Source of the DNA: Amycolatopsis sulphurea
GTDB taxonomy: Bacteria > Actinomycetota > Actinomycetes > Mycobacteriales > Pseudonocardiaceae
Direction: 5' to 3'
Length of the DNA stretch: 64,000 nucleotides
NCBI RefSeq assembly: GCF_002564045.1
Contig: NZ_PDJK01000001.1
Span: 806,001 to 870,000 of the forward strand
Shown here one piece after another: positions 45,072 through 64,000 of the stretch; positions within the stretch are counted from its first letter, which is position 1; every line of letters starts with the position of its first letter. The translations under genes were made by a program, and so were the position numbers. Under the pieces are notes generated by a model, which saw nothing but the letters and a program-made list of their open reading frames with translations, searched no databases and had not been told where the DNA came from.

Positions 45072-45092
45072 AACGGCAGGAGAGCGTCCGAA

Positions 45093-46352: not shown

Positions 46353-46354
46353 CC

Positions 46355-48180: not shown

Positions 48181-49510
48181 GCATCGGGCGGTGCCGGCCC
48201 GGATCCGGCTGGGCCGGCCGCATCCCGGCAACGGGCCGGTCCGCGCGAAACCCCACGCGGACAAGGCGATGAGCCAGCGCGCGACCCTGCTCGCCGCGAT
48301 CGCGGACGGGCAGTCGCACCTCCGGAACCTCGCTGACTGCCGGGACACCGCATCGAACCTGCGAGCGCTTGAGCAGCTCGGCGTCCCTGTCCACGTCGAA
48401 GGAACGAGCGTGACCATCGACGGCGTGGGCCCTGGCGGGTTCGATTTCCGTGGCGAGACAGTGGACGCCGGCAACAGCGCGACTACGGCGAGACTGCTCA
48501 TCGCGGTCTTGGCCGGCAGCCGGGCAGACTGCGTTGTCGACGGCAACGACCTGCTGCGCGACCGGCCGATGGACTGGCTGATAGAACCGCTGAGACAGGT
48601 GGGTGCCGACCTGACCTGCTTCGGGCCGAAGGAGCGGTTGCCGGTGCGCGTGGCAGGCAGGCAGCTGCGGGGCGGCACCGTCGACGTCGAGATCGACTCG
48701 GCCCAGCCGGTATCCGCGATGTTGTTCGCTGGGCTCGCGGCGGACGGCGAGGTGGTCATCCGGCGACGGACGGCGGCCCGCGATCACACGGAGCGGATGC
48801 TGCGCTGGACGGGCGTGGACGTGCGGGCCGCGCGGAACCAGGTGATCCTGACTCCCGGAACTCCGCGCGCCTTCGAGCTGACCGTGCCTGGTGATCCGTC
48901 CGCGGCGGCTGTGCTGGCCGCACTGCACTTGGCCTCGCCGCGAGCGTCGTCGTCTTTGCTGCTCGACGACGTCTGCCTGAATCCGACCCGGCTCGGCTTC
49001 TTCCGCGCTCTGCGGTCGCTCGGTGCGGACATCACGTGGCAGGAGGGTGCGGGCGCCGGGTCGCCGGAGCCGGTCGGCACGATCGAGGTGCGCGGCCCGC
49101 TGCGTCTTGCGGGCGGCACGGTCGGCGGCAAGGAACTCATCCAGGCCGGTATCGACGAGTTGCCGCTCCTGGCCGCGCTGTGCTGCCGGGCAGACCGGCC
49201 GCTGGTCATCGAGGACGCCGCCGAGCTGCGCGACAAGGACATCGACCGGATCACCGCCACGGTGGAGCTGTTGACGCAGTTCGGCATCGAAGCGTCCGCC
49301 ACCTCCGAAGGACTGATCGCCGCTCCGTCGGAGCCGAAGCCGCCGGCGGAGCTTTCGTTGCCAAGGGACCATCGGCTGGTGTTCGCCGGCTGCGTGCTGG
49401 CAGTGCTCGCCGGCGGAGAGCTGGTACTCGACGGCGTGGACGCGGCCGCGACGTCGTATCCGGCTCTGGTCGAGGATCTGGCCACCTATGTTCCGGTGGA
49501 GGTGCTGTGA
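48170..49510 (+). CDS. EPSP synthase (AroA)-like enolpyruvyl transferase family protein
   Basis: 446 aa with the repeated six-unit inside-out barrel pattern. Equivalents of E. coli residues, aligned by eye: Lys22 kept (Lys32, ADKAMSQR), Ser23 is Ala33, Arg27 kept, GNSATTAR, Arg124 kept (LRDRPMD), Ser169-Ser170-Gln171 is SAQ, Asp313 kept (GIDELP), Lys-Glu-Ser-Asp-Arg is KDIDR (Glu341 to Asp), His385-Arg386 kept (DHR), and Lys411 not found (ATSYPA). Substrate phosphate and PEP contacts are therefore altered. Probably acts on another cyclic substrate; in ansatrienin-type pathways an AroA homologue has been proposed to carry out an elimination. GTG start, coupled to the flanking genes. Confidence 0.85.
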   Translation: MATEHRAVPARIRLGRPHPGNGPVRAKPHADKAMSQRATLLAAIADGQSHLRNLADCRDTASNLRALEQLGVPVHVEGTSVTIDGVGPGGFDFRGETVDAGNSATTARLLIAVLAGSRADCVVDGNDLLRDRPMDWLIEPLRQVGADLTCFGPKERLPVRVAGRQLRGGTVDVEIDSAQPVSAMLFAGLAADGEVVIRRRTAARDHTERMLRWTGVDVRAARNQVILTPGTPRAFELTVPGDPSAAAVLAALHLASPRASSSLLLDDVCLNPTRLGFFRALRSLGADITWQEGAGAGSPEPVGTIEVRGPLRLAGGTVGGKELIQAGIDELPLLAALCCRADRPLVIEDAAELRDKDIDRITATVELLTQFGIEASATSEGLIAAPSEPKPPAELSLPRDHRLVFAGCVLAVLAGGELVLDGVDAAATSYPALVEDLATYVPVEVL

Positions 49511-50223
49511 CGCTGGCGATTGTCACCGGAGGTGCCGGGTGCCTCGGCAGCGAGGTGAGCCGCGGCCTCGTCTCCGACGGCCACCATGTGCTGGTGCTCG
49601 ACCGGGCCGGGCACCGGCCGGCGGAGAATCTGACGAGTGCGGTGGTCGACCTGACCGACGAGGACGGTGTGCGGTCGGCCGTGGACAGGGGCATGGCCCG
49701 GCACGGCGCACCCGCGGTGCTGGTCACCTGTCACGGTTGGTCTCCGAAGGGACCCGGCGGGCGGGCCGCGGCCGGCGCCGCGATGCCCGCCGCGGACTTT
49801 CTGGCGGTACTGCGGGTCAACCTGCTCGGCTGCTATCTCGCGATGAAGGCGGTCGTGCCCGCGATGGCGGCGGCCGGTGGCGGGCGGGTGGTCAATGTCA
49901 GCAGTACTTCCGGGCTGACTGGCCGGACCACGGCCAGTCCCGCCTACGCGGCGGCCAAAGCCGGAATCGACGCGCTGACCCGGTCGTTCGCGGCCGAGTA
50001 CGGCGACCGGGGGGTGCTGGTGTCCGCCATCGCACCGGGCAAGTTCCGCAGTCCGGGCTGGGTCGACGACCCGGCGGCAGTGGCCGGATACACCGGAGAA
50101 ATCCCGCTCGGCAGGCTGGCGGAACCGGCGGAAATCGGCGCGGCGATCCGGTTCCTGGTCTCGGCGGGCAACACCTACCTCACCGGCCACACCATGGTGC
50201 TCGACGGAGGGCGGCTGGCATGA
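49507..50223 (+). CDS. Short-chain dehydrogenase/reductase
   Basis: A 238-aa classical SDR. TGGAGCLG glycine loop, catalytic Ser in VSSTSGLTG, YxxxK in AYAAAKAG, and TGHTMVLDGG at the C terminus. A Gly/Ala-rich insert (GGRAAAGAAMPA) precedes helix 4. Overlaps both neighbours (GTGA, ATGA). Likely oxidises or reduces a ring hydroxyl or ketone of the pathway intermediate. Confidence 0.9.
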   Translation: MTLAIVTGGAGCLGSEVSRGLVSDGHHVLVLDRAGHRPAENLTSAVVDLTDEDGVRSAVDRGMARHGAPAVLVTCHGWSPKGPGGRAAAGAAMPAADFLAVLRVNLLGCYLAMKAVVPAMAAAGGGRVVNVSSTSGLTGRTTASPAYAAAKAGIDALTRSFAAEYGDRGVLVSAIAPGKFRSPGWVDDPAAVAGYTGEIPLGRLAEPAEIGAAIRFLVSAGNTYLTGHTMVLDGGRLA

Positions 50224-50972
50224 CCAGGGTCGAAGACCTGACCTGGACCGAGTTCGAGAACCGGGCACCCGGAGTGCCGTACTGGCTGGTCGTCACCGGC
50301 AGCGTCGAGCAGCACGGTCCGCACCTCCCGCTGGGCGCGGACACCCTGGTCGTGGAGCGAGCCGCCGAACTGGTGGCCGACCGGCACGGCGCGCTGGTGC
50401 TGGGCACGGTGCGGGCAGGCGTGCTGCACGCTTTCCAGGACTGGCCGGGCAGTACTCGCCTGACGCCGGAGACTTTCACCTCGACCGTCGTGGAACTGAC
50501 CGCGGGGATCGTGCCGTACCGGAACCGGGTCGTGCTGCTCAACGGGCACGACGAAAACCACGAGTCGCTCATGATCGCGGCACGGCGGCTGGTCGAATGC
50601 CAGGGCACGGACGTCGTCGTGGTGGAGTGGGCCGAACTGGTCAGCGACGTGATCCGCGAGAGGTCCGCTTCGACCAGCGAGGCGCACGCGGGCGAGGGCC
50701 TGACGTCGGTTTTCCTGCACTGGTACCCGGACCGGGTGCGGACTGAACTGGTCGCGCCCGGGGTCGAGCCGGAGAACGGCCTGACCCGGGACGATCTGCA
50801 CGTGGCGAAGCGTGCGCACCGGCCGGTCCGATTCGATCGGGCGGCGGTGCCCTCGGGCGTGATCGGCGACCCGCGGCCGGCGAGCGCGGACAAAGGGGCG
50901 GCGATCGCGGAGGCGTTGGTGGATCGGCTGGAACTGCTGGTGAAGGAGCGAGGATGGCTGTGCGCCCGATGA
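50220..50972 (+). CDS. Creatininase-family metal-dependent amidohydrolase
   Basis: 250 aa. Metal-site motifs: SVEQHGPHLPLGADT (Glu, His, Asp), LNGHDENHES (the family NGHGGN is changed to NGHDEN) and EAHAGEGLTS (family HAGExETS). The family hydrolyses cyclic or formyl amides; members include creatininase, ArfB and MftE. Overlaps the SDR gene by ATGA. In this cluster it could cleave a lactam or a carrier-peptide amide. Confidence 0.83.
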   Translation: MTRVEDLTWTEFENRAPGVPYWLVVTGSVEQHGPHLPLGADTLVVERAAELVADRHGALVLGTVRAGVLHAFQDWPGSTRLTPETFTSTVVELTAGIVPYRNRVVLLNGHDENHESLMIAARRLVECQGTDVVVVEWAELVSDVIRERSASTSEAHAGEGLTSVFLHWYPDRVRTELVAPGVEPENGLTRDDLHVAKRAHRPVRFDRAAVPSGVIGDPRPASADKGAAIAEALVDRLELLVKERGWLCAR

Positions 50973-52261
50973 CGGCCGAGGACGCCGGCACGGCGATGCG
51001 GGAGCTGACCCGGTTCGAGTCGCCGTCGATGTCGGCGACCATCGAAAACGACATCGGCCTGATCGTGTCTCATGCGGACGGCCCCCATTTCTGGGATCGG
51101 GACGGCCGGCGGTATCTCGACCTCACCGCGGGGTCGGGGGTCCATGCGCTCGGCCATGGCGATCCCGGGCTGCTGACGGCGATGTCCGAGCAGCTGCACC
51201 GGTTCGCCCACGGTGGCTGGCAGCTGGGCTGTCCGGCTCGCGCCGAGCTGAGCGGTCGGCTCGCCGAGTTGCTGCCCTGGCCGGATCCGGTGCTGTTGTA
51301 CTGCACAACCGGTTCGGAGGCGGTCGAAGGCGCGCTGAAGGTGGCTCGCGCGGCCACCGGACGGCGGCAGATCCTGGGTTTCCTCGGCGGCTATCACGGA
51401 AAGACCGGCGGGTCGCTCGCTGTCACCGCGAATTCGAGCCTGCGGCGGGACGTCACCGAGCTGCCGATCGCGGCGCTGAGCCTGCCGTATCCCTCGGCCC
51501 GCGGATACCTCACCGCCGAAGTAGTGTCGTCCGAGGCAGAATTCGCGTGGGGCAAAGAGATCCTCGAACATCCGGATTTCGGGCTGGACGACGTGGCCGC
51601 GCTGGTGGTGGAGCCCGTGCAAGGCGCGGGCGGCATGCTGGCGGCAAGTCCCGGCTGGCTTTCGCAGCTGCGCGAGTTCACCAGGAAACACGGCATTCTG
51701 CTGGTTCTGGACGAGATCTATACGGGCTTCGGCCGCACTGGATCGATGTTCGGCTTTCAGCACGACGGCGTCGTGCCGGACCTTGTCGTGCTGGGCAAGG
51801 CGTTGGGTGGCGGTCTGCCCGTCTCCCTGGTCGCCGGACCGCGCGCGGTGATGAAGCGGATAGCGTCGCTCCGGCAGACGAGCACGTTCTCCGCGAATCC
51901 GGTGGCCTGCGCGGCGGGCAATTACGTGGTGCGGCGCGTGGTCGAGGACGACCTGTCGCGGCGTGCTGCCGAGACCGGCGACGCACTGGCGGCTGCGCTT
52001 GCCGCCCTGCGGATCCCCGGCGTCGAGATCACGTTGTGCGGGCGCGGGTTGATGCTGGGCGCACGCGTCCACACGACGGGCGGCGCGGACTTCGTCAAGG
52101 CGGTGGTGGCCCGGATGCGGGAGCTCGGAGTTCTCGTGCTGCGCGGGGGTTCGGACGGTGAGGTGGTGAAGCTGACTCCGCCGCTGACGCTGCCGGCCGA
52201 CGCCGCAACGGCCGCCATCGAGGCTTTCGCCACGGCAATCAGGGACGAGCTCGCGCGGTGA
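50954..52261 (+). CDS. Class III aminotransferase (PLP)
   Basis: 435 aa. PLP Schiff-base lysine Lys282 in LVVLGKALGGGLP; DEIYTGFGRTGSMFG and VEPVQGAGGM are the cofactor-site blocks; CTTGSEAVEGALKVAR binds the phosphate. Introduces an amino group at a non-alpha carbon or terminal aldehyde/ketone in most relatives. The ATG at 50954 follows GAAGGAG with 6-base spacing, overlapping the preceding gene by 19 bases; an ATG at 50969 is the alternative. Confidence 0.9.
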   Translation: MAVRPMTAEDAGTAMRELTRFESPSMSATIENDIGLIVSHADGPHFWDRDGRRYLDLTAGSGVHALGHGDPGLLTAMSEQLHRFAHGGWQLGCPARAELSGRLAELLPWPDPVLLYCTTGSEAVEGALKVARAATGRRQILGFLGGYHGKTGGSLAVTANSSLRRDVTELPIAALSLPYPSARGYLTAEVVSSEAEFAWGKEILEHPDFGLDDVAALVVEPVQGAGGMLAASPGWLSQLREFTRKHGILLVLDEIYTGFGRTGSMFGFQHDGVVPDLVVLGKALGGGLPVSLVAGPRAVMKRIASLRQTSTFSANPVACAAGNYVVRRVVEDDLSRRAAETGDALAAALAALRIPGVEITLCGRGLMLGARVHTTGGADFVKAVVARMRELGVLVLRGGSDGEVVKLTPPLTLPADAATAAIEAFATAIRDELAR

Positions 52262-53058
52262 CCGAACGACTCTGGGTAGGTCGGGTGTTCGTGCGGAGCG
52301 GCTGCGGCGGCAACCACACCGGAGTGGTGCTTGACGAGTGCGGCGCACCGGCCGATCTGGCTGCTGCCCTTGGCTTTCCGGACACCGCGTTCGTGCAAGA
52401 GCACGCCGGACGTTCCGTCACCGTTCGCACGTTCTCGCCGTACGAGGAACTGGCCCAGTGCTTGCAGACGACGCTGGCGGCCCCGGTCGCGCTCGGCGCG
52501 GCCGACAGTGAGACCTGGCGCGTCCGGCATCCCGCCGGCGCCTTGGACGTTCAGGTCGAGCGTGCGACGGACGGATGGCTGTGCTGGGCTCGCGACACTG
52601 ACGCAGCAGGGGAGCCGATGCGCGTCGGCGACTTGCCGGGTTGGCTGAGCGCTGCGGACGTCTATCGGGTGCCGCAGGGACGAAGCAGGTTGTACGCGAG
52701 GGTTTCGGACGTCGCGGAGTTGCCGGTGTTCAGCTCCGCCGAGGTTCTCGCTGTTTGCCGGGCGCATGACTGCACTGCTGTCGTCTTCTTCGCCGAGACC
52801 GCGGCGGAGACCGTGCGGACCAGGGTGTTCACGACTTCGCTGGGAGGTCGGGAAGACGTCGCCACCGGTGGTGCGGCGGCAGGCGTCGGCGTCCTGCTCG
52901 CGCGTGCGCGCCGGACCGGGCGGATCGACGTGATCCAAGGCTCGGAGGAACCAGCCGGACAGGGACACCTGTTGTTGTCGCTGGACAGTGAACGACATGT
53001 CGGCGGCCGGGTATTGCCGCTGCTGACGGGAAGGACAGCGGCATGGGGACCGGACTGA
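52258..53058 (+). CDS. PhzF-family isomerase/epimerase-like protein
   Basis: 266 aa with the two-lobed PhzF/DapF-like plan: FVRSGCGGNHTGVVLDE at the start, LGFPDTAFVQEH where the catalytic Glu would be (Asp here), VRTFSPYEELAQCLQTTLAAPVAL for the first lobe and DVATGGAAAGVGVLL for the second. PhzF isomerises a chorismate-derived diene in phenazine synthesis. The Glu-to-Asp change means activity cannot be assumed. GTGA overlap with the aminotransferase gene. Confidence 0.82.
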   Translation: MTERLWVGRVFVRSGCGGNHTGVVLDECGAPADLAAALGFPDTAFVQEHAGRSVTVRTFSPYEELAQCLQTTLAAPVALGAADSETWRVRHPAGALDVQVERATDGWLCWARDTDAAGEPMRVGDLPGWLSAADVYRVPQGRSRLYARVSDVAELPVFSSAEVLAVCRAHDCTAVVFFAETAAETVRTRVFTTSLGGREDVATGGAAAGVGVLLARARRTGRIDVIQGSEEPAGQGHLLLSLDSERHVGGRVLPLLTGRTAAWGPD

Positions 53059-54158
53059 CAGCGACCCGCCACAGCCGGATCGACGACGTAGCCGGCACCG
53101 AAGAGCTGTTCGCCGGGGCACCGCTCTACGAGAGTCCCGGTTGGCTCCGTTACTGCGAGCGGCTTTCGGGCGGGCGCATGACGTACCTGGTCGCGAGGGA
53201 CGAACACGGCAGTCCGGTCGGGCTCACGGCGACCAGGATCGTGCGTCCAGGCCAGGTGATGGCCCTGTATGACCTCGGTACGTTGTTCGACGACTGGAAG
53301 CCGGCGGCGTTGTACCCGAACGTCGTTTCCGCCGTGTCCGGTTCGCACTGGGTCGATCGTGTCCTGCCCGGTATCGATCCCGCTCCGGTTCGCGCAGTTC
53401 TCGGCAAGGAGCTTGCCGAGGTTGCGGCGGAGCTTGGCTGCCCGGCCGCGGCGGCGTTGTATGTCGACGAGATGGACAGTGCCCGGCAGCTGAGCGCGGC
53501 GATGGGTGGCTCGCCGCCGTTCATCTTCGCCGCGCAGACGCTCCTGACCGGGCAGTGGTCCAGCTTCGACGACTATGTGGCCAGTCTCAAGCGTTCGCGG
53601 CGTAACAAGGTACGACGAGAGCTGCGCGAGTGCCGCGAGAACGGGATCCGGATTTCCGTCCACAGTGGAACGAAAGCGCTCGGCGAGGACACTGCGCGGC
53701 TCCAGGTCGCGTTGCGGGAGAAGTATGCGGTGGGCGGCTCGGTCGAATCCGTTCTTGCCGATTATGAGAATCTTCGTGCGACGGTCGAGGACCGGCTGCT
53801 CGTGTTCCGGGCGGAGCGCGACGGACGGCTGCTGGGCATGAGCATCGCATTGCTGGACGGCGATCGGCTGCACCTGCGGCTGGTCGGCTTCGATTACTCG
53901 CAGGAGCTGGACTTCCTCTATTTCACCGTGTTGTTCTACGCGCCGATTGAATGGGGTTCCCGCAACGGGATGACGTCCTATGCGTTCGGCACCAGCAGCT
54001 ATCCCGCGAAACTGGCACGCGGCTGCCTGCCGGCGCCGCTCTACGCCGTCGTGCGCTGGCCCGATGCGGACCGCGCGGCCTGCGAGGAGCGAGCGCGAGC
54101 GCACGAGAAGGCGCTGAGCGCGGAGCTCGGCATCGGAGACGGTGAGGGGAATTCGTGA
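53043..54158 (+). CDS. FemAB/GNAT-like acyl- or aminoacyl-transferase
   Basis: 371 aa with two GNAT-type folds. The first lobe has YESPGWLRYCERLSGGRMTYLVARDEHG, a long basic helix LKRSRRNKVRRELRECRENGI follows, and the second lobe has LLVFRAERDGRLLGMSIALLDGDRLHLRLVGFDYSQELDFLYFTVLFY. This layout is shared by FemX/FemAB-type tRNA-dependent aminoacyl transferases and BioF2-like acetyltransferases. In peptide antibiotic clusters such proteins add an amino acid from tRNA. Donor not determinable here. Confidence 0.75.
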   Translation: MGTGLTATRHSRIDDVAGTEELFAGAPLYESPGWLRYCERLSGGRMTYLVARDEHGSPVGLTATRIVRPGQVMALYDLGTLFDDWKPAALYPNVVSAVSGSHWVDRVLPGIDPAPVRAVLGKELAEVAAELGCPAAAALYVDEMDSARQLSAAMGGSPPFIFAAQTLLTGQWSSFDDYVASLKRSRRNKVRRELRECRENGIRISVHSGTKALGEDTARLQVALREKYAVGGSVESVLADYENLRATVEDRLLVFRAERDGRLLGMSIALLDGDRLHLRLVGFDYSQELDFLYFTVLFYAPIEWGSRNGMTSYAFGTSSYPAKLARGCLPAPLYAVVRWPDADRAACEERARAHEKALSAELGIGDGEGNS

Positions 54159-55459
54159 CGAAACGTCGTTTGCTGGTGGTGGACGCGCCGGGCGGTCCAC
54201 GGCCGGAACAGTATCTGCGCAGTTTGTGCGAGGAATTCAGCGTTACGGTGGTGTGGTTGTCCGTCGAGGCGCCCGCGGGCCGGGACCGCCGCCGGGCAGC
54301 GGTCTCGCTCGCGCCGACAGACATCGCCGTCGGGAATCCGCTGGACCTGGCAGGCGAAATACGGCGAGTGGCCGACGCCCACGAGCCTGACGGGATACTC
54401 GCGCTGAGCGAGCGCGTCGTTCATGTCGCACAATCGGCCGCCTATGAGCGTGGGTTGCCCGCCAACCGCCCGGAGACCTTGCAAGCGTTGCAGGACAAGA
54501 GGATCCAGCGGGAGCAGTTGGCCAAGGCCGGCCTCGCGGTCCCCGAACCGTGGGTCCTGCGCACCGAGCGAGACTGCGCCGCGGCCGCCGGAGGGGCAGC
54601 GTTTCCCGCGGTGCTCAAGCCTTCGGTGGGTATGGGCAGCATCGCGACCTACCTGATTCCGGGTCCGGAGGAGCTGCTCGCGACTTGGCGGTCCGCGATG
54701 GAGATTGTCGCCGCGGACAGCCGGATAGCGCACCACAGCCCGGTTCTGCTGCTGGAAGAGCTGTTGCCCGGCATGGACCCGGTGGACGAGCCGAGGCTTG
54801 GCGACTACGTCTCGGTCGAAGTGCTGGTGACCGACGACGGCCCGAACATCCTTGCGGTGTCGGACAAATTGCCGCTGTCCCCGCCGTTTCGGGAGAACGC
54901 GCATTTCCTGCCGTCGGTCCGGCCGCCTGGCGTCCTGGCACCGATCACCGACTGCGTCCTGGCCGCGCACGAAGCGCTCGGGATCACCCACGGGGTCACG
55001 CACACCGAGGTCAAGCTCACGCCGGCCGGCCCGGCGATCATCGAAGTCAACGGACGGGTCGGCGGTGGCGTGACCGAGGAACTGCGGCTCGCGGCGAACT
55101 ACGACCTGCCGCTCCACCTGGCCCGGACGGCCGTCGGGCGGCCGGCCGACACCCGCCCGGCGTTTCACCGGTACGCGTCGTTTCTCACTCCCCAGCCGCC
55201 GCAGGGACATCACGTGGTGCGGCGGTCCCCGGCGACGGCCGAGCTACGGGCGGCGTTTCCCGCGCTGGACGAGATCGTCCATATCACCGCCGCCGGCCAG
55301 ATCGCCGATTCCGCCGTCGGCACCGCCGGCAATCTGGTCAAGGCATTCGCCGCCGCGCCGGCCCACGAGGACCTCGTCGACCTGGCCGAGCGCATCACCG
55401 GTCCCGAGTACTTCCGGCTCGAAGAGATATCGGCCGGCGACAAGGAGAAGAAGACGTGA
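54155..55459 (+). CDS. ATP-grasp ligase (second)
   Basis: 434 aa. FPAVLKPSVGMGSIATYLI (glycine loop), VLLLEELLPG and YVSVEVLV (central strands), and HTEVKLTPAGPAIIEVNGRVGGGVTEEL (metal ligands Glu and Asn, active-site Arg). More canonical than the first ATP-grasp protein at 43788 and not its close paralogue. Likely forms a second amide bond. GTGA and GTGA overlaps with both neighbours show tight coupling. Confidence 0.87.
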   Translation: MTKRRLLVVDAPGGPRPEQYLRSLCEEFSVTVVWLSVEAPAGRDRRRAAVSLAPTDIAVGNPLDLAGEIRRVADAHEPDGILALSERVVHVAQSAAYERGLPANRPETLQALQDKRIQREQLAKAGLAVPEPWVLRTERDCAAAAGGAAFPAVLKPSVGMGSIATYLIPGPEELLATWRSAMEIVAADSRIAHHSPVLLLEELLPGMDPVDEPRLGDYVSVEVLVTDDGPNILAVSDKLPLSPPFRENAHFLPSVRPPGVLAPITDCVLAAHEALGITHGVTHTEVKLTPAGPAIIEVNGRVGGGVTEELRLAANYDLPLHLARTAVGRPADTRPAFHRYASFLTPQPPQGHHVVRRSPATAELRAAFPALDEIVHITAAGQIADSAVGTAGNLVKAFAAAPAHEDLVDLAERITGPEYFRLEEISAGDKEKKT

Positions 55460-56988
55460 CGAGCAGTATCCGGATCTTCATCGGCGAGCCGTCCTCGATC
55501 GACCCGGCACAGGGTTTCGAACACGACGGGGCGCTCGTGCTGCGGTTCCTCGCCGACCCGCTGATCGACTTCACCCCGGACACCGGCGAGCCCCGGCCGG
55601 CCGCGGCCGCGAGCTGGGAGGTGGACGAGGACGGGAAGCGAGTGCTGTTCCGGCTGCGCCGCGATGTCCGATTTCACCACGGCCGGGCCGTGACGGCCGA
55701 GGATTACGTGTACTCGCTGACCAGGGTGGTCCGACCGGAGACCGGGTCGAAGCTGGCCTACAACCTGGCGATGGTCGAGGGCTGCGAAGCCGTCCTGGCC
55801 GGCCGCTCGGACACGTTGAGCGGAGTCCGCGCGCTGGCCCCGGACCTGCTCGAAGTCCGGTTGACCGAACCGTTCCACGAGATCGCGGCGGTGTTCGGGC
55901 ACCGGGTCACCGCGCCGGTGCCTGCCGAGCTCATCGAGGCCGACCCCGAGGACTTCCGGGTGCGGCCGGTCAGCACCGGGCCCTACCGGATCGCCGAGCC
56001 GTGGCGGGAGGGCATCGGACTGGTGCTGGAACGCTTCGACGGCTACTACGGGAGCAACGCCGCCTACCCGGACGGCGGCGGCGGGCACGTCGACCGGATC
56101 GACCTGGCGGTCTACGACGAGGTCGACGAGGGCTACGCGGACTGGCAGCGAGGTGCCCTGCAGATCACCAAGGTCCCGCCGGCCCGGCTGGGGGACGCTT
56201 TCGGATTCGGCGAGCGATTCCGGCGGACGCCGTGCGCGCTGATGCAATACATCGGATTTCCCACCAGGGTCGCTCCGTTCGACGACCCCCGCGTCCGCCG
56301 GGCCGTCGCGATGAGTGTCGACCGGCAGCACATCATCGACGAGATCTTCCACGGCACCCGCCCGATCGCCGACCGGGTCCTGCCGCCCGCCATCGCCCGC
56401 GGCGACGGCGGCGACGACCTGATCGACATCGAGTACTCACCGCAGCGAGCTCGTGAACTGCTGGCCGAAGCAGGCGTCGGCACCGACCTGGAGTTCGACT
56501 TCTGCTTCAACGCCGGCCTCGGCCACGACGCCTGGGTGGCGCTGGCACTGGACCAGATCAGCGCCGCCCTCGGCTGGCGGTTCCGGCTCACCCCGTTGCC
56601 CTGGCCGGAATTCCTGCGCTGGCTGCCTCGAGCCGATGCCCTGTTCCGGATGACCTGGGTGATCGACTACCCGTCGCCGGACAACTTCCTCTATCCGCTG
56701 TTCCATTCCGAATCCATCCACCACGACAATTTCACCGGGTTTTCCTCCGCCGAGTTCGACCTGCTGATCCAGCGCGCCCGATCAACCGCGGACCCGGCCG
56801 AACGCGCCAAGCTCTATCGGGCGGCCGAAGAGGTAGTGTGCTCGGCTCTGCCACTGCTGCCGCTGTGGTTCGGCGTCCAGTACCACTTGGTCGACCTCGA
56901 CCGGTTCGACATCGACGGGCCGCCGGTCGACCTGTTCGGCGAGCCCGCACTGCGGCTTTACCGGCCGCGGCCGAGCTCTGCCGGCTGA
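55456..56988 (+). CDS. Peptide-binding protein (SBP family 5) without a signal peptide
   Basis: 510 aa of the OppA/DppA-type fold: EPSSIDPAQGFEHDGALVLRFLADPLIDF, LRRDVRFHHGRAVTAEDYVYSLTRVV, STGPYRIAEPW, DDPRVRRAVAMSVDRQHII and DYPSPDNFLYPLFHS. The protein begins MTSSIRIFIGEPSSID directly, with no signal sequence or lipobox, and the GTG start lies within the overlap with the previous gene. No permease or ATPase is adjacent. Precedent: clavulanic acid clusters contain OppA-like proteins needed for late steps. It may bind the peptide product or an intermediate. Confidence 0.85.
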   Translation: MTSSIRIFIGEPSSIDPAQGFEHDGALVLRFLADPLIDFTPDTGEPRPAAAASWEVDEDGKRVLFRLRRDVRFHHGRAVTAEDYVYSLTRVVRPETGSKLAYNLAMVEGCEAVLAGRSDTLSGVRALAPDLLEVRLTEPFHEIAAVFGHRVTAPVPAELIEADPEDFRVRPVSTGPYRIAEPWREGIGLVLERFDGYYGSNAAYPDGGGGHVDRIDLAVYDEVDEGYADWQRGALQITKVPPARLGDAFGFGERFRRTPCALMQYIGFPTRVAPFDDPRVRRAVAMSVDRQHIIDEIFHGTRPIADRVLPPAIARGDGGDDLIDIEYSPQRARELLAEAGVGTDLEFDFCFNAGLGHDAWVALALDQISAALGWRFRLTPLPWPEFLRWLPRADALFRMTWVIDYPSPDNFLYPLFHSESIHHDNFTGFSSAEFDLLIQRARSTADPAERAKLYRAAEEVVCSALPLLPLWFGVQYHLVDLDRFDIDGPPVDLFGEPALRLYRPRPSSAG

Positions 56989-57794: not shown

Positions 57795-57808
57795 TATCAT
57801 CGTTGGCG
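57795..57808 (+). promoter_or_regulatory. Possible leaderless promoter of the TIR operon
   Basis: TATCAT at 57795-57800 ends 7 bases before the GTG at 57808, and no ribosome site is visible. This fits a leaderless transcript beginning at the start codon. No convincing -35. Confidence 0.35.
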
Positions 57809-58401
57809 TGTCCGAGTACGAGTTCGATCTGTTCATCAGCTACAGCCGTCACGGCAGCGTGCAGAAATGGCTGCTCAACCACTTCTACGGCAAATTGCGT
57901 GAATGTCTCGCCGACGAGTACGGCAGCCTGAACGTGTACGTGGATCGGCAGATGCCCAGTGCGGTGCACTGGCCGTCCAACCTGCGGGACGCGTTGCAGC
58001 GCAGCAAGATCATGGTTCAGTTGCTCACCCCGCCGTACTTTCAGTCCTCCTGGTGCATGGCCGAGACGCGTAGCATGCAAGCCAGGGAGGAGATGCTCGG
58101 ATTCGCGGGACACGGTGGCTCTTCCCAGGGGTTGATCTACCCGATCCTGTACGGGGACTCGGAAAATTTCCCCGATTGGGGAAAGGTGCGCGCCTGGCGG
58201 GATTTCAAGGACGTGGCCTATCCGGATCCTTCCTATCAGCAGAGTGTTGAATACAACAAGTTCCACCACAAGGTCAAGGAGCTCGCCAGGGACTTGGCGC
58301 AGCTGGTGGCCCAGGCGCCACCGTGGCGGCCGGACTGGCCGCTCGTCGAAGTACCGGAACCGGTGTTGCTGCCGACTCCTCCGCTGCCGAGGTTCGAATG
58401 A
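57808..58401 (+). CDS. TIR-domain protein
   Basis: A 197-aa protein. EFDLFISYSR (residues 4-13) is the first TIR strand and BB-loop lead-in, LRDALQRSKIMVQLLTPPYFQSSWCMAE covers the later core, and Glu86 in WCMAE occupies the position of the catalytic Glu of NAD-cleaving TIR proteins. The C-terminal 40 residues are Pro-rich. From established work, such TIR domains in bacteria often deplete NAD or make signalling nucleotides on phage infection; activity here is inferred. The stop overlaps the start of the ATPase gene (ATGA). Confidence 0.85.
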   Translation: MSEYEFDLFISYSRHGSVQKWLLNHFYGKLRECLADEYGSLNVYVDRQMPSAVHWPSNLRDALQRSKIMVQLLTPPYFQSSWCMAETRSMQAREEMLGFAGHGGSSQGLIYPILYGDSENFPDWGKVRAWRDFKDVAYPDPSYQQSVEYNKFHHKVKELARDLAQLVAQAPPWRPDWPLVEVPEPVLLPTPPLPRFE

Positions 58402-60047
58402 CGACCGGCACCGTGCTCACCTTCTATTCGTACAAGGGCGGGGTGGGTCGCAGTTTCACGCTGGCGAACGTGGCCGTGCTGCTGGCGCGCTGGGGGTACC
58501 GGGTGCTCACGGTGGACTGGGACCTCGAAGCGCCCGGGCTGCACCACTACTTCGGGCCGAAGCTGATCGAGCAGCCGGAACGCGGCGTCGTCGACCTCGC
58601 GCACGACTTCCTGCGTGGTGCCGGAGCACCGGAGGGCCCGCGGGATCTGGAGTCCTACGCCGTCCGGGTCGGCGTCGAAGGTGGCCGGCTCGATCTGCTG
58701 GCCGCCGGGCGCGTGGTTTCAGGCAAGCTGGAAGACTCCTATTCGAAGCGAATGCAGGCGCTGAACTGGGAGGACCTGTACCAGCGCGGGTTCGCCGCGT
58801 ACCTGGAGCGGTGCCGTGCGGCGTGGACCGAGGACTACGACTTCGTACTGCTCGACAGCCGGACCGGTGTCTCCGACATCGCCGGCATCTGCACCGCGCA
58901 TCTGCCGGACCGGCTGGTCGTGGTGTTCACCGCCAACGACCAGAACCTCGACGACGTGGTGGACGTCGCCCGGCGGGCCGACCGCGCCCGTGACCGCATG
59001 CCCTACGACCGGCCCCGGCACTCGGTACTTCCCATTCTGTCCAGGTTGGACAATCGAGTCGAGTACGAGCGCGCCGAGCAGTGGCAGCGCAAGTGCGCCG
59101 AGACCGTGGCGCCGCTGTTCGGCAACTGGCTGGCGCAGACCGTCCCGGTGGACCTGATGATGCGCCACCTCACGGTGCCCTACGTCTCCTACTGGAGCTT
59201 CGGCGAGCAGTTGCCGGTCCTGGAGGAGGAGGTGCCCAAAGCGGACCAGATCTCCTACGCGCTGGAGACGGTCACTTCGGTCATCGCGCAGGACTTCGAC
59301 CGTACCGACGTGCTGGCCGACAACCGTGACGCCTACGTGGCCGCCGCGCGGGACCGGTGCCGTGAGTTCGACCTGGACGTGCTGGTGTCGAGCGCACGGC
59401 AGTCCAAGGTCGCCGCGGAACTGATCCAAGAACTGCACCTGCTCGGGGTGCGCGCCGACCGGTCGTTGTCCGGCGACCCGGGATTCCTGGCCGAGGCCAC
59501 CGAATCGGCCCAGCACCTGTGCCTGGTGGTGGAGGGACCGCTGAGCCGCTGGCAGATCACCGAGTCCGAACGATTCCTGCGGCACACGCTCGGGCCGGAG
59601 GGCCGGCATCGGCAGCTGTTCTGCCTGCTCGCCCGCGGCATCGATCGCGACGAACTGCCGGGCTTCGTGCGCAATCTGCGCCACCTGGAATTCACCCCGG
59701 ACGTGCGGCCCGTCCAGGTGGCCAGGCAACTGCACCATCTGCTTACCGCCACCGGGGCAGAGCCGGACCAGGAGGCGCTGCGGGGCGCGGCGGCCGCTCT
59801 CCGCGCGCTGCCGGACACCCTGCCCTACGCCGAACGCTTCGTCCTGGTCGAGGAAACCGTGCGCGGAATGGCCGCCGCACTGGACCACGGCGACCTGACC
59901 CTGCTGCTCGACCGGTCGGCGGACCTGACCTTCCTCGGCAGAGCCCACGGCGACGGTGCCGGGGTGCCCGCACCCCGTGCGCTCCTCGACGCGACGAGGG
60001 CACTGCTGAGCCGGATCGATCGACGGATCAACGCGTTCACCGAATGA
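58398..60047 (+). CDS. KGGVGR-type MinD/ParA-like ATPase with C-terminal TIR-like domain
   Basis: 549 aa. The N-terminal deviant Walker motif YSYKGGVGRSF has Lys13 but Arg in place of the P-loop Lys, as in the KGGVGR-variant ATPases of actinobacteria; VDWDLEAPGLHHYF and FVLLDSRTGVSDIAG supply the other nucleotide-site blocks. From about residue 320 a second domain begins (LDVLVSSARQSKVAAELIQELHLLGVRAD), continues LCLVVEGPLSRWQITESE with Trp385 and Glu389/Glu391, then FCLLARGI: a TIR-like order of strands including a W-x3-E motif. Lies between the TIR gene and the small gene, overlapping the former and abutting the latter. Confidence 0.82.
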   Translation: MTTGTVLTFYSYKGGVGRSFTLANVAVLLARWGYRVLTVDWDLEAPGLHHYFGPKLIEQPERGVVDLAHDFLRGAGAPEGPRDLESYAVRVGVEGGRLDLLAAGRVVSGKLEDSYSKRMQALNWEDLYQRGFAAYLERCRAAWTEDYDFVLLDSRTGVSDIAGICTAHLPDRLVVVFTANDQNLDDVVDVARRADRARDRMPYDRPRHSVLPILSRLDNRVEYERAEQWQRKCAETVAPLFGNWLAQTVPVDLMMRHLTVPYVSYWSFGEQLPVLEEEVPKADQISYALETVTSVIAQDFDRTDVLADNRDAYVAAARDRCREFDLDVLVSSARQSKVAAELIQELHLLGVRADRSLSGDPGFLAEATESAQHLCLVVEGPLSRWQITESERFLRHTLGPEGRHRQLFCLLARGIDRDELPGFVRNLRHLEFTPDVRPVQVARQLHHLLTATGAEPDQEALRGAAAALRALPDTLPYAERFVLVEETVRGMAAALDHGDLTLLLDRSADLTFLGRAHGDGAGVPAPRALLDATRALLSRIDRRINAFTE

Positions 60048-60058
60048 AAGGCGGCGAA

Positions 60059-60664
60059 ATGCCGGAGCAGTACTCCACGAATGCCAGGGCCGCACTACTG
60101 GCGCTGGCGCTGGCCAACCGGGCCATGCTCAACACCGAACTGGTCAACGACCACAAGGTCCGGCTCGGTCCCGCCGACCGCGACCGGCTGAATACCGCCG
60201 GACTGCTGGAGAGTTCGACGAACGTCCGGCCGTTCGTGCACCGGATCACCGACGACGGGATCGACTGGTGCCTGACCGACCTGGTCCGCTCGGAACTACC
60301 GCCTCGCGCGGGGCCGCAGGCCCGGCAGCAGCTCGACCTGCTCCGCAGGCTGGTGCCGTTCCTGCGCCAGCGCGGCTTGCTGGCCGAGGCGTTGCGGTCC
60401 GGTGACCTGGAATCGCTCATCCGCGGCGTCTACGCCGAGCTGTCGGTGGGCGTGCAGGACTGGATTCGCCTGGCCCGGCTGCGGCCGAAGCTCAACGGTG
60501 CGGGCAAGGACGAGGTGGACGCAGTGCTGGTCAAAATGGCGAAGACGGGCACGGTCCACCTGGCCCCCGACTCCAATCGCAAGGTGCTCACCGACGTCGA
60601 CCACGCCGCCGCCGTCCGGGTCGGTGGCGAGGACAAGCACCTCATCGTAATCGAGGAATCATGA
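60059..60664 (+). CDS. Small protein with a winged-helix-like start
   Basis: A 201-aa protein of unrecognised family. Residues 8-75 (ARAALLALALANRAMLNTELVNDHKVRLGPADRDRLNTAGLLESSTNVRPFVHRITDDGIDWC) have the helix-helix-helix-wing layout of a winged-helix domain. A helical region and a beta-rich end follow. The ATG at 60059 follows AAAGGCGG; an ATG at 60044 overlapping the previous stop is the alternative. ATGA overlap with the large ATPase gene. Probably an adaptor or DNA-binding partner of the system. Confidence 0.65.
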   Translation: MPEQYSTNARAALLALALANRAMLNTELVNDHKVRLGPADRDRLNTAGLLESSTNVRPFVHRITDDGIDWCLTDLVRSELPPRAGPQARQQLDLLRRLVPFLRQRGLLAEALRSGDLESLIRGVYAELSVGVQDWIRLARLRPKLNGAGKDEVDAVLVKMAKTGTVHLAPDSNRKVLTDVDHAAAVRVGGEDKHLIVIEES

Positions 60665-63600
60665 CCGACGACTTACGTGAGGTCCTGGCCGTACTGCGAT
60701 TCAACTCCGCCGAGACCCCGGACGACGTCTGGCACACTTCGCCCTCGCACATCGACGGCCTGCACGCCAGGGTCGAGCACACCATCGGGGCGGGCATCGA
60801 GGACGCCAGGGCCAGCACCGGCCCGAGCCCGGTGGGCGTGGCCGTGCAGGGGGAGAAGGGAGTGGGCAAGACCCACCTGCTCGGCTCGGTGCGCCGCATG
60901 GTGCAGCGTGAGGGCGGCTACTTCTTCCTGGTCGAGCTCACCACCGGGGACGCGTTCTGGGATGACCTCGCCGAGGCGATGCGCGGCGAGCTGCACCGGG
61001 CCAACGACGAGGGCGAGCGCCAGCTCACCGTGCTGCTGCGGCAGTTGTGTGCCGGTGCCGCGGTGTCCGAAGAGGTCAGCCGAGCCATCGTGGGCGAATC
61101 GGCACTGCAGCCCGACCACCTGCGTGCACTGCTCAACGGCCTGAGGAAGGCCGACAGCCGCATCGCCGTGGAATGCGGTGATACCATCCGAGCTCTGGTG
61201 CTCTACGGGTCCGACGCCGCGGACATCGGCCTGGAATACCTCCAGGGCCACCAAGGCAGCAAGGATGACCGCCGGTTGTGGGGCATGCAGCACCGCGCCA
61301 AGTCACCCCGCGTGCTCGTGCGCGACATCTCCCGCGTCCTCGCCCTGACGGGTCCGTGCGTCGTCGGGGTCGACCAGCTGGACACCTTGGTCAACAAGGG
61401 GCAGGACGCCCTCGACACCCAGGAGACCGACGCCGGGGCGACCCGGGAAATCGCGCTGATTTCCGACGGTTTGATGGCGCTGCGCGAATCCACCCAGCGG
61501 ACGCTGACCATCGTGGCGTGCCTGCCCAACACCTGGATGAGGTTGAAGGCCGTGGCCAGCGACACGGTGGGCGACCGGTTCACTCAGACCTCCTTCCTGG
61601 GGGCGATCCAGGATCCGGAACTGGGCAGGAAACTGATCGAGAAGTGGCTTGGGGTGATCTACGAAAAGCACGGCGTCACACCACCGCACTCGACCTGGCC
61701 CGTGGCCGCCAGCGCGTTCGGTGAGAGCTGGACGAGTTACACACCGCGGCAGTTGCTCAAGCGGATCCATGCCCACGCCGAAGCCTGCCTGCACGGTGAG
61801 ATCCGGGAACTGGGTTCCTTCGACGAGAAGGTGGCCGAGACCGTACCAGTGGGCCTGCTGCCGGATCATTCCCTGGACGAACTCGACGAGGAGTTCGCCC
61901 GGCTGCGGAGTGCGGTCGATCTCAGCGAGCTGGACATCAGCAAGGATAATGAAGACGAGGTCGCCCCACCATTGCTGCTGGCCGGATTGAAGGCGTGGAT
62001 CACCGAGATCGGCAATGACGACCTGAAGTGGCAGCCGGAGTCGCTGTCGGACGAGAAAAGGCTGCACGCCAGCCTGCGCCGGCACCTCGACGACGCGCTT
62101 GACCTCCAGGAGCAGTGGACCTTCCGGGTCATCTCCGGGGGCCACGGCACGACAGTGCTGCGCCGGTTGCGCAACGCCCGCGACGCTGCGGGCATCCGGG
62201 CCGGGGCCAAGGACCGGTACCTCGTGCTCATCCGCTGGGGCAACCGCGGCTGGACCGGGCCGACCACCCGCAAGGAGTTCACTGCGCTGGAGCAGCTGGG
62301 GGTGCGGCGCCTCGACATGTCGGACGAGGATCTGCGGACCTTCAGCGCGCTCCGGAAAATGCTGGCCACGCCGAACCGGCGGTTGATCACCTGGCTGGTG
62401 GCGCGCAAGCCGGCCAGCGGCCGGACACTGCTGCGCCACGTCCTGCCCCAGTCCACCCCGCCCAGGAACGGCCACCAGGAAACGCGGCCGCCGCCGGACC
62501 TCGCCCCGGCCAGACTCACCACCCCACCCCCCGCCGAGCCGAAGCCCACCCCGCCAAAGGCCCCGATTGCCGAACCGGTCGAAGCCCCGGTCGTGGAACC
62601 GGCCGCACCGGCCGACGAGGAATTCGTGCTCGGGCTCAACGGGGAAATCCGCATCGAGCTGGCGTCGCTGCGCAAGCACGTCATCGTGTTCGCGGGGTCC
62701 GGCAGCGGGAAAACCGTGCTGCTGCGCCGGATCGTCGAGGAGTGCGCACTGCGCGGGGTGTCGGCGATCGTGCTGGACCCCAACAACGACTTGGCCCGCC
62801 TGGGCGACGCCTGGCCCGAACCGCCTGGCGACTGGCTGCCCGGGGACGCGGGCAAGTCGGCGGAATACCTGGCCCACACCGAGGTCGTGGTGTGGACGCC
62901 GGGCCGGGCGGGCGGACGTCCGCTCAGCTTCCACCCGCTGCCCGACTTCGCCGACGTTCGCGAGGACCCCGACGAGTTCGCGGTCTCGGTCGAAGCCGCC
63001 GTGGCCCGGCTGGTGCCGCACGCCAGGGTCGTCAACGGTACCAAGGGTGCCGTTCGCGGCCGGGCGGTGCTGCGCGAGGCGCTGACGCACTACGCCCGTT
63101 CCGGGAAGCGGGACCTCAACCGGTTCATCGAACTGCTCGCCGAACTGCCGGAGGGGGTGAGCAAGCTCAGCACCGGCACCGCGATGGCCGCCGATCTGGC
63201 GGAGACCCTGCGGGCGGCTGTGGTCAACGACCCGCTCCTCGGCGGGCCGGGGGAAACGACCGACCCGGGGGTCCTGCTCACGCCGTCGGCAGGCAGGCGG
63301 GCCCGGATCTCGGTGATCAGCTTCATCGGGTTGCCGTCGGAGGAGCAGCGGCAGGGCTTCGTCAGCCAGCTCCAGTGGGAGGTGTTCGCCTGGATCAAAC
63401 GCCACCCGGCCGTGGACCGGCCGCTCGGCGGCCTGTTCGTGATGGACGAAGCGCAGACCATCGCGCCGTCGACTGCGTTGACGGCCAGCACGCAGAGCAC
63501 CATCCTGCTCGCCTCCCAGGCACGCAAGTACGGGCTCGGCCTGGTGCTGGCCACCCAGGCACCGAAGGGCGTGCACAACCAGGTGGTCGGCAATGCCACG

Positions 63601-63834
63601 ACGCAGTTCTTCGGCAGGCTGAACAGCCCGGCGCAGGTGGCCGCGGCGACCGAGATGGCCAGGGCGAAGAGCAGTTCAGTGGGCAACATCTCGAGGCTGG
63701 AACGCGGGCAGTTCTACGCCACCGGCGAGAACTTCGCGTTCCGCCGGATGCGGGTGCCGCTGTGCCTGAGCCACCACCCGCCGAGTCCGTTGCGGCTCGA
63801 AGAAGTACTGGACCGGTCTCACGAGCACCGGTGA
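60661..63834 (+). CDS. Two-ATPase protein: N-terminal AAA plus C-terminal HerA/FtsK-like domain
   Basis: 1057 aa. First P-loop GEKGVGKT at residues 64-71, with probable Walker B VVGVDQLD near 236. The middle, about 330-600, is alpha/beta of unknown type, followed by a Pro-rich linker (about 600-650). Second P-loop GSGSGKT at 679-685; Walker B FVMDEAQ (Asp929-Glu930); then LASQARKYGLGLVLATQAP and FFGRLNSPAQV, as in HerA/VirB4-like DNA translocases. No HerA N-terminal barrel. HerA-like ATPases paired with TIR, SIR2 or nuclease proteins are recurrent in phage defence. Complete 3' end, followed by a strong hairpin. Confidence 0.82.
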   Translation: MTDDLREVLAVLRFNSAETPDDVWHTSPSHIDGLHARVEHTIGAGIEDARASTGPSPVGVAVQGEKGVGKTHLLGSVRRMVQREGGYFFLVELTTGDAFWDDLAEAMRGELHRANDEGERQLTVLLRQLCAGAAVSEEVSRAIVGESALQPDHLRALLNGLRKADSRIAVECGDTIRALVLYGSDAADIGLEYLQGHQGSKDDRRLWGMQHRAKSPRVLVRDISRVLALTGPCVVGVDQLDTLVNKGQDALDTQETDAGATREIALISDGLMALRESTQRTLTIVACLPNTWMRLKAVASDTVGDRFTQTSFLGAIQDPELGRKLIEKWLGVIYEKHGVTPPHSTWPVAASAFGESWTSYTPRQLLKRIHAHAEACLHGEIRELGSFDEKVAETVPVGLLPDHSLDELDEEFARLRSAVDLSELDISKDNEDEVAPPLLLAGLKAWITEIGNDDLKWQPESLSDEKRLHASLRRHLDDALDLQEQWTFRVISGGHGTTVLRRLRNARDAAGIRAGAKDRYLVLIRWGNRGWTGPTTRKEFTALEQLGVRRLDMSDEDLRTFSALRKMLATPNRRLITWLVARKPASGRTLLRHVLPQSTPPRNGHQETRPPPDLAPARLTTPPPAEPKPTPPKAPIAEPVEAPVVEPAAPADEEFVLGLNGEIRIELASLRKHVIVFAGSGSGKTVLLRRIVEECALRGVSAIVLDPNNDLARLGDAWPEPPGDWLPGDAGKSAEYLAHTEVVVWTPGRAGGRPLSFHPLPDFADVREDPDEFAVSVEAAVARLVPHARVVNGTKGAVRGRAVLREALTHYARSGKRDLNRFIELLAELPEGVSKLSTGTAMAADLAETLRAAVVNDPLLGGPGETTDPGVLLTPSAGRRARISVISFIGLPSEEQRQGFVSQLQWEVFAWIKRHPAVDRPLGGLFVMDEAQTIAPSTALTASTQSTILLASQARKYGLGLVLATQAPKGVHNQVVGNATTQFFGRLNSPAQVAAATEMARAKSSSVGNISRLERGQFYATGENFAFRRMRVPLCLSHHPPSPLRLEEVLDRSHEHR

Positions 63835-63842
63835 CCGCGGCG

Positions 63843-63882
63843 AAAAGCGCCCTTCACCCGTTTCGGGTGAAGGGCGCTTTTT
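63843..63882. terminator. Bidirectional intrinsic terminator
   Basis: AAAAGCGCCCTTCACCCG (63843-63860) and CGGGTGAAGGGCGCTTTT (63864-63881) form a perfect 18-bp stem with a TTT loop and A/T flanks on both sides. It ends the conflict operon and the converging gene at 63892. Confidence 0.85.
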
Positions 63883-63891
63883 CTCGTGAGG

Positions 63892-64000
63892 TCAGCGCGC
63901 CACGGCGGCGACTACGGTGTTGATGCGCTGCCACAGTGCGGCGAACAGGTCTTCCCGGCGGTAGACCCGCGGCTCGCCGGTGCTGCGGCCGAGGACCGAG
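63892..64000 (-). CDS. Partial gene, C-terminal 35 residues
   Basis: Minus-strand frame running off the window, reading SVLGRSTGEPRVYRREDL and on to INTVVAAVAR with a TGA at 63892-63894. It converges on the terminator. Too little is visible to name the family. Confidence 0.6.
   Translation of the reverse strand, partial: SVLGRSTGEPRVYRREDLFAALWQRINTVVAAVAR

Follow-up and report, generated by a model that had tools for sequence, protein, structure and literature searches.

The end of the window, the 64,000-nucleotide stretch of Amycolatopsis sulphurea DNA analysed here, contains four closely packed genes that a preliminary description had read as a four-part defence system, and the question is whether they form a unit and what such a unit would do. 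The explanation that we favour is a conflict operon with a TIR effector, most likely directed against phages, that is built on a core of a small protein and an AAA-HerA protein; we give it about an even chance of being correct.

Organization of the operon and its flanks

All four open reading frames were present on the forward strand, as had been described. The first gene (57808-58401, GTG start) encodes a TIR protein of 197 residues with the motif WCMAE (W82-C83-M84-A85-E86), and an ATGA overlap joins it to the gene of a KGGVGR-variant MinD/ParA ATPase (58398-60047, ATG start, 549 residues). The third gene (60044-60664) encodes a small protein of up to 206 residues, the core partner of HerA, and is joined by another ATGA overlap to the AAA-HerA gene (60661-63834), whose 1057-residue product has two ATPase domains. 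ATGA contacts had been reported at all junctions, and those between TIR and KGGVGR and between the small protein and HerA stood. The longest form of the small protein starts at 60044 and shares an ATGA overlap with the KGGVGR gene; 16 of 18 alignment rows, with starts as picked by the gene caller, begin at the second Met of this form, so that 60059, 11 bp past the KGGVGR stop, is the likelier start, and with it the overlap is lost.

Downstream, a hairpin of 19 pairs (63842-63882; -42.2 kcal/mol, z -8.5; not assigned to a strand) sits between convergent genes. The perfect terminator of the preliminary description was recovered as this hairpin 3' of the operon, but it was absent from the list of a consensus terminator scan, perhaps because its T run pairs within the stem. 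An Rfam search of the window's own locus at the gathering threshold returned no family. Upstream (43788-56988), ten of the 12 called genes were scanned and look metabolic, a point against a defence reading, and regulator-like neighbour genes are kept in many of the related loci.

A constant core and a variable front module

Using the HerA protein, we retrieved 80 actinobacterial loci, the best 80 of at least 518 confirmed relatives; because they were ranked by similarity to the query, proportions among them are not natural frequencies. Co-occurrence of the four families had been set beforehand as a test of the operon, and it was borne out: among these best 80, 48 loci carry all four genes, 32 lack both TIR and KGGVGR, and none has only one of the two. 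The small protein was found by profile in 79. Six loci that seemed to lack TIR (L036, L043, L044, L045, L047 and L052) proved to be gene-caller artefacts, as tblastn found the TIR sequence.

The module before the core, again among the best 80 of at least 518 relatives, was TIR with KGGVGR in 48 loci, a DUF559 nuclease in 15, PDC-M02A/B-like genes in seven, divergent Trypco1/trypsin-WD40 genes in five and others in five; the L098 representatives matched the PADLOC families PDC-M02A (E 1.7e-55) and PDC-M02B (E 2.9e-104). The small protein and AAA-HerA are a constant core, and the slot ahead of them varies. A fixed four-gene system was rejected on the 32 core loci without TIR and KGGVGR, so the proposed four-part unit survived as families that occur together, not as a fixed set.

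Pairwise-distance correlations among the four proteins were 0.78-0.88 over 43 loci, and shuffled maxima were 0.12-0.27. This analysis left out five TIR loci in which the TIR gene had not been called; L055, a near copy of L036, was omitted from it and from the clustering, edge-gene adjacency and junction counts. Shared species history adds to these correlations. Additionally, two genomes have two copies each, and the testable copy of each genome matched its own subfamily for all four proteins. By co-occurrence and co-inheritance, the association of the four genes exceeds chance. In the HerA tree, which was made by a quick method with SH-aLRT support only and a midpoint root, the TIR and KGGVGR pattern required two changes, interpreted as a single gain and a single loss; the long branches of L003 and L004 meet, and their placement is unsure.

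The distribution of the operon is patchy. HerA was present in 17 of 23 same-genus genomes, with the TIR form in 16, and a sample of 121 genomes from the order yielded the AAA half in 20, among them the genome under study. Phage carriage was rejected, as there was no match in phage records and none of five pattern hits in a viral-contig scan was confirmed.

At their edge, outside the interval first described, 43 of the 48 TIR loci carry an additional TIR/SEFIR gene, and we count this fifth gene as part of the operon neighbourhood. In the window it is a convergent, TIR-like accessory gene on the reverse strand, whose end lies at 63892-64000 and which runs past the window to about 64794; it was called in its own genome as a gene of 300 residues (L054:7893-8795). 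The same gene adjoins 26 of the 48 TIR loci, including this one. Its counterpart in one relative (L056) matched TIR_2 below the cut-off (E 0.0012), that in another (L035) had no TIR_2 match, and the edge gene of L080 matched the PADLOC family bSEFIR (E 6e-28).

Domain composition of the four proteins

The TIR protein, correctly described as bearing WCxxE, matched Pfam TIR_2 at 40.7 bits (cut-off 28), with TIR_2/TIR above cut-off. Glu86 was invariant in 17 of 17 aligned rows, and WCxxE was present in all 43 called TIR genes or pieces scoring >150 bits. In the PDB, the profile aligned to enzymes with TIR domains as well as to resistance proteins of plants; the top hit bears the name ADP-ribosyl cyclase/cyclic ADP-ribose hydrolase, and Glu86 aligned to the Glu of that protein. 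The motif and this alignment point to NAD targeting indirectly, and Glu86 is a candidate catalytic residue of a predicted NADase. The top NCBIfam match was FxsC_Nterm at 47.8 bits, under the FxsC cut-off of 130, and FxSxx-COOH FxsC membership was rejected. A Thoeris TIR identity was also rejected (ThsB1, 14.8 bits; ThcB4, 20.9 bits against a cut-off of 220), and none of the four operon proteins gave a ThsA row at E 1.

The assignment of the second protein to the KGGVGR MinD-like ATPases was confirmed by NCBIfam NF047398 (155 bits, cut-off 90); a CATASP match (19.4 bits) was under cut-off. The protein consists of an ATPase (1-300), a TIR-like segment with WQxxE (about 325-453) and C-terminal helices (456-548), and its AF2 model (mean pLDDT 76) had structural matches to the MinD/ParA fold; the first 50 Foldseek hits included no TIR. 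Pfam TIR_2 matched 14 of 29 C-terminal fragments (best E 7.9e-5) but not the fragment of the window protein itself, and the C-terminus probably bears a divergent TIR domain, although this reading is weak. A PDB profile search with the TIR-like segment gave nothing usable. Aligned by hhalign to the standalone TIR profile, the segment reached a probability of 1.3 % (E 0.039); this test is low in power, since the SEFIR family, used as a positive control, itself reached just E 0.0042 and 8.1 % against the same profile.

The description of the 1057-residue protein as having two P-loop domains held, with AAA_22 (38.2 bits) and DUF87 above their Pfam cut-offs and AAA_16 (30.1) below its own. Its AF2 model (mean pLDDT 83) showed an AAA domain (about 1-420), a middle domain (431-594), a low-confidence linker (599-651) and HerA (654-1057). 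K70, D238, K684, T685, D929-E930, R955 and Q966, including both Walker A lysines, were invariant in all 51 aligned rows. AAA ATPases usually place the catalytic Glu of Walker B where the AAA half has a Gln (DQxD; DE in the HerA half), so the AAA half may not hydrolyse ATP. This half had no match at E 0.01 in a PDB profile search. The HerA model matched HerA in Foldseek, including SIR2/HerA and DUF4297-HerA complexes. The middle domain (431-552) has the REase-like order helix-strand-strand-helix-strand; no Lys in 465-529 was conserved in >80 % of the 51 rows, the Foldseek top 50 contained no REase, and no Pfam nuclease family was above cut-off in the four proteins.

The winged-helix-like character ascribed to the small protein is unproven. 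Family searches gave nothing beyond one Pfam row below cut-off, and the PDB match to AspA (E 0.11) is at chance level, since calmodulin chains outranked it; the counterpart in L004 matched the DUF6293_C winged helix below cut-off. The C-terminal half of the protein recurs in actinobacterial plasmid proteins, some of them annotated as helicase or HTH.

Relation to known systems and proposed function

No description of this four-gene combination was found in the open-access literature searched, in agreement with the earlier statement that it was unrecognized. The 'HerA/FtsK capture' class Orc/CDC6-HerA-wHTH-REase, as presented in the relevant parts of Iyer et al. 2024 (PMC10853773), is similar in its AAA ATPase and HerA, its REase-like region between the ATPases and its small partner gene. 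The HerA half also has the sensor-1 Gln of that class with an Arg finger just ahead of the strand (51 of 51 rows), and the DUF559 cluster gene in 15 of the best 80 of at least 518 relatives is nuclease-type. No counterpart of the active REase of that class was found among the four proteins, which include TIR and KGGVGR instead, and the Orc/CDC6 and iREase identity of our parts is putative. The same source places TIR fused to Orc/CDC6 in other neighbourhoods, independent of HerA.

In Nezha, or SIR2-HerA, HerA is likewise paired with an NAD-consuming effector, here only predicted, and immunity is abolished when the SIR2 active site is altered or herA is lost (PMC11559045). That effector is SIR2, not TIR, and the system, which the abstract gives as two proteins (SIR2-like protein and helicase), would be without a KGGVGR ATPase or a small partner; the AAA-HerA fusion of the present operon is a further difference. 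Nezha membership was rejected, as the four proteins gave no SIR2 row. For PDC-M28, the KGGVGR domain matched the M28B component at 88 bits over residues 7-182 only and the four proteins had no M28C row, and membership was rejected; in a same-genus genome, one gene scores 401 bits for M28B and its neighbour 549 bits for M28C.

The best reading of these comparisons is a HerA-centred invader sensor that would fire a TIR NADase. It would work in the manner of Nezha and resembles the Orc/CDC6-HerA-wHTH class, but has another effector module. Because the pump core of relatives is accompanied by other weapons in the same slot, this conserved operon of soil actinobacteria is probably a defence system with exchangeable warheads; the PADLOC candidate-defence modules and bSEFIR-like edge genes of the representatives favour a conflict role. 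AAA-HerA would join the small protein in a ring and engage invading DNA, and its ATP turnover would change the KGGVGR protein, a putative MinD/ParA-like nucleotide-binding switch in which arginine replaces the P-loop lysine. The TIR-like C-terminus of this switch could then nucleate the standalone TIR through TIR-TIR contacts, and the assembled TIR would consume NAD+ or make an NAD-derived signal, halting the infected cell, with the edge gene as an additional effector or modulator.

The same parts could instead intercept segregating or transferring DNA, as Iyer et al. propose for HerA capture systems in the part of PMC10853773 devoted to them, with the TIR killing or arresting the cell. The HerA pump, the ParA/MinD-like second gene and the plasmid-protein relatives of the small protein would suit this, but the machinery is common to the phage reading and the core pair of L004 itself lies on a Methylobacterium plasmid; we consider the anti-plasmid or anti-conjugation role unlikely. 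L003 was not taken as plasmid evidence, since it lies amid ribosomal-protein genes on a record called plasmid.

An internal signalling or programmed-death switch for development or stress would be akin to the peptide-processing, FxsC-containing FxSxx-COOH/VMAP systems, whose inactive MinD/ParA-like and TIR/AP-ATPase parts are described from multicellular actinobacteria (PMC7159879, sections on these parts). FxsC_Nterm as the top match and the adjoining regulator-like genes fit a regulatory role, yet the FxsC cut-off was missed, the descriptions of parts in that source include no HerA core, the distribution is patchy, and the front module is exchanged with nuclease-type and PADLOC candidate families, which makes this improbable. 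TIR domains can also be purely structural, and several TIR-like domains per locus, some weakly TIR-like, would be consistent with scaffolds beside ATPases that silence or translocate DNA. The conserved WCxxE and Glu86 and the enzyme named in the top PDB match argue against this, and we hold it to be very unlikely.

A broader version of the TIR-effector defence reading, to which we give somewhat less than an even chance, is that the small protein and AAA-HerA are a general actinobacterial immune chassis with at least four unrelated warheads (DUF559, PDC-M02, Trypco1/trypsin-WD40 and TIR with KGGVGR). In the two-TIR relay of Pseudonocardiaceae, the ParA-like switch would turn HerA engagement of DNA into TIR polymerisation, and the edge TIR/SEFIR gene would be a third, exchangeable component. 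If this is true, one DNA-engaging core could be traced as it switches among DNA cutting, NAD depletion and a PADLOC candidate module, which would make sensing and killing separable and testable by module exchange. TIR would join the effectors paired with HerA, and the KGGVGR ATPases, a family that has a name but as yet no explanation, would gain a testable role as the relay from an ATPase sensor to TIR.

Gene organization and surroundings of the operon

The four genes of the putative TIR/KGGVGR/HerA defence operon were found where the preliminary description had placed them, all on the forward strand: a TIR gene with a GTG start (57808-58401), a KGGVGR ATPase gene (58398-60047), a small gene (60044-60664 in its longest form) and an AAA-HerA gene (60661-63834), the KGGVGR and AAA-HerA genes each starting at an ATGA overlap. 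The likelier start of the small gene is its second methionine at 60059, because 16 of 18 rows in the small-protein alignment begin there (starts from the gene caller). The small gene and the HerA gene overlapped by 4 or 1 bp in 48/48 TIR loci (47 of 80 plus the window) and in 29 of the 31 loci without TIR. Where a terminator had been proposed, a 19-pair hairpin (63842-63882, z -8.5) separates the operon from a convergent gene, which ends at 63892 and extends beyond the window. The hairpin was absent from the output of the consensus terminator scan.

An HTH gene and a large gene that is SARP/TPR-like by eye (9321-13451 in L054, the stretch around the window's own locus) adjoin the operon in many related loci. 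The HTH gene's relative in locus L056 has HTH_31, and the two neighbours are possibly regulators of the operon. A co-directional run of 12 called genes (43788-56988; 10 scanned) contained two ATP-grasp genes, one of them L-amino-acid-ligase-like, with MFS, FrhB-like, EPSP-synthase-like, creatininase, class III aminotransferase, PhzF-like and peptide-binding protein genes, and looks like a small-molecule pathway.

Features of the four proteins

The TIR protein passed both Pfam TIR_2 and TIR. PDB matches to its profile included a TIR bearing the name ADP-ribosyl cyclase/cyclic ADP-ribose hydrolase, to which the glutamate of WCxxE aligned, and plant resistance proteins such as RPP1, L6 and RUN1. 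Glu86 was invariant in 17 aligned TIR rows, and WCxxE was present in 43/43 called TIR genes or pieces above 150 bits, five more TIR loci having no called TIR gene. At L100:4126-4693, the TIR gene consists of two overlapping called pieces, reflecting either a broken reading frame or an error in sequencing. The C-terminal ~80 residues of the small protein are an uncharacterised domain; they recur in plasmid-encoded proteins of actinobacteria, some of which carry a helicase or HTH annotation.

In the AAA-HerA model (mean pLDDT 83), the AAA half is followed by a middle block (431-594) whose strand/helix order resembles a restriction-endonuclease fold, a low-confidence linker and a HerA domain. The Foldseek top 50 contained HerA-type proteins, including SIR2/HerA, DUF4297-HerA and the DndH C-domain, and no match for the AAA and middle parts; the top PADLOC match was mad8 (68 bits, HerA half). 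Lys70, Asp238, Lys684, Asp929-Glu930, Arg955 and Gln966 were invariant in 51 rows. Because its Walker B reads DQxD, the AAA half may lack ATP hydrolysis.

The second protein passed the NCBIfam KGGVGR model. In 39/39 rows the P-loop lysine position is occupied by Arg18, and Lys13, Asp40, Asp42 and Asp153 were conserved in the same alignment. Kaur et al. (PMC7159879) predict inactivity for the MinD/ParA-like domains of the conflict systems that they describe. The operon's KGGVGR gene was the only one over the cut-off in its own genome. Across 15 genus genomes (own included; a subset of 24 searched), 13 KGGVGR genes were found at E 1e-20, 11 being the operon's by position and two sitting elsewhere. 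At one of these two places (L156:7753-10492), the called KGGVGR gene encodes 433 aa and its ATPase neighbour 481 aa, and this pair matched PADLOC PDC-M28B/M28C at 401 and 549 bits; at the other, the gene caller missed the KGGVGR gene.

A second, divergent TIR probably lies towards the C-terminus of the KGGVGR protein. Its AlphaFold2 model (mean pLDDT 76) places an alternating strand-helix block (326-453) behind the MinD fold, followed by helices (456-548). W385-Q386 was kept in 39/39 rows and Glu389 in 38/39, with spacing as in WCxxE. Pfam TIR_2 matched 14 of 29 isolated homologous C-terminal fragments at E <=1 (best 7.9e-5), and did not match the window's own fragment at that threshold. By hhalign, the segment matched the standalone TIR profile at E 0.039 (probability 1.3 %), compared with 0.14-0.42 for four unrelated segments; this test is weak, because even the SEFIR positive control reached only E 0.0042 (8.1 %) and the TIR-like family of genes at the locus edge 0.11. 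The segment matched that edge-gene family somewhat better (E 0.0028, 11.1 %). The Foldseek top 50 for the whole model contained MinD/ParA-type P-loop proteins and CTP synthase, and no TIR.

Co-inheritance and exchange of the front module

A HerA alignment search gave at least 518 confirmed relatives, the best 80 of which, all Actinomycetota by record name, were taken. The four families proposed to belong together do co-occur: all four were found in 48 of these best 80 loci, and TIR alone or KGGVGR alone in 0/80 by profile. As the set was ranked by similarity to the query, 48/80 is not a natural frequency. The small gene and HerA stood without TIR/KGGVGR in 31/80, and in L124 (1/80) HerA was present and the small gene was not found.

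Among the same best 80, the module preceding this core was TIR+KGGVGR in 48, a DUF559-cluster gene in 15, a DUF4365 gene together with a partner of 333-367 aa in seven, a divergent pair of Trypco1 and trypsin/STAND/WD40 genes in five and other in five. These classes are based on gene calls and clustering, with family scans on representatives, and the "trypsin" and "STAND" labels on inspection by eye and literature. Only the partner of the DUF4365 gene was seen in L124, and only the large member of the Trypco1 pair was called in L120. The L098 representatives of the DUF4365 pair matched PADLOC PDC-M02A (E 1.7e-55) and PDC-M02B (E 2.9e-104). The HerA tree (84 rows) required two changes for TIR+KGGVGR, compared with a shuffled mean of 27.0; we read these as a gain, on a branch with a support of 100, and a loss in L101, their direction being inferred because the tree is midpoint-rooted. 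Named rows in the TIR+KGGVGR clade are Pseudonocardiaceae but for one labelled Nocardia.

The four proteins share a common history. Their pairwise distances correlated at 0.78-0.88 over 43 loci, which includes a contribution from species history, compared with shuffled maxima of 0.12-0.27. A. auranticolor and A. enzanensis carry two operon copies each, and for each of the four proteins the one testable copy per genome matched the subfamily to which it belongs. In the genus, the HerA protein was present in 17/23 genomes and the TIR form in 16; in the order, 20 of a sample of 121 genomes, with the operon's own among them, had the AAA half. Three relatives came from plasmid records: one on a Methylobacterium plasmid, one in a Tsukamurella record with ribosomal-protein genes in the same stretch, and one in a Nonomuraea record of 11.8 Mb. 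No relative was found in phage records or confirmed in viral contigs.

Counting the window but not L055, 43 of the 48 TIR loci had a further TIR-superfamily gene at the locus edge: a convergent TIR-like gene behind HerA in 26, and a SEFIR-cluster gene in 17, of which 16 were counted as divergent ahead of TIR and one through a same-strand downstream copy. Five TIR loci had no edge gene, L064 among them stopping at a contig end. Among the 32 loci without TIR/KGGVGR in the best 80, only L101, placed within the TIR clade, had one. The L080 representative matched PADLOC bSEFIR (E 6e-28) and that of L038 carried Pfam SEFIR and NPCBM. The TIR-like family was weaker: L056 scored below the TIR_2 cut-off and had no PADLOC match, and L035 had no TIR_2 match. 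Additionally, in one Amycolatopsis subclade (L047, L049, L051, L052), a same-strand 1115-1139 aa gene with a TIR-like start by eye lies 53 bp past HerA.

Putative mechanism and precedents

In the open-access papers searched, at the level of listings and selected passages, we found no description of TIR, KGGVGR and HerA together. The closest published class is that of the Orc/CDC6-HerA-wHTH-REase neighbourhoods of Iyer et al. 2024 (PMC10853773), who describe TIR fused to Orc/CDC6 copies in neighbourhoods independent of HerA association. In Nezha (PMC11559045), a SIR2 NADase acts together with HerA.

From the observed genes, motifs, co-inheritance and module exchange, we infer a mechanism that would begin with the AAA-HerA core engaging DNA and becoming activated. 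The KGGVGR switch, itself probably equipped with a TIR-like domain, would relay this activation to the standalone TIR, and the latter would then consume NAD+. As judged from sequence, the putative operon likely serves in defence.
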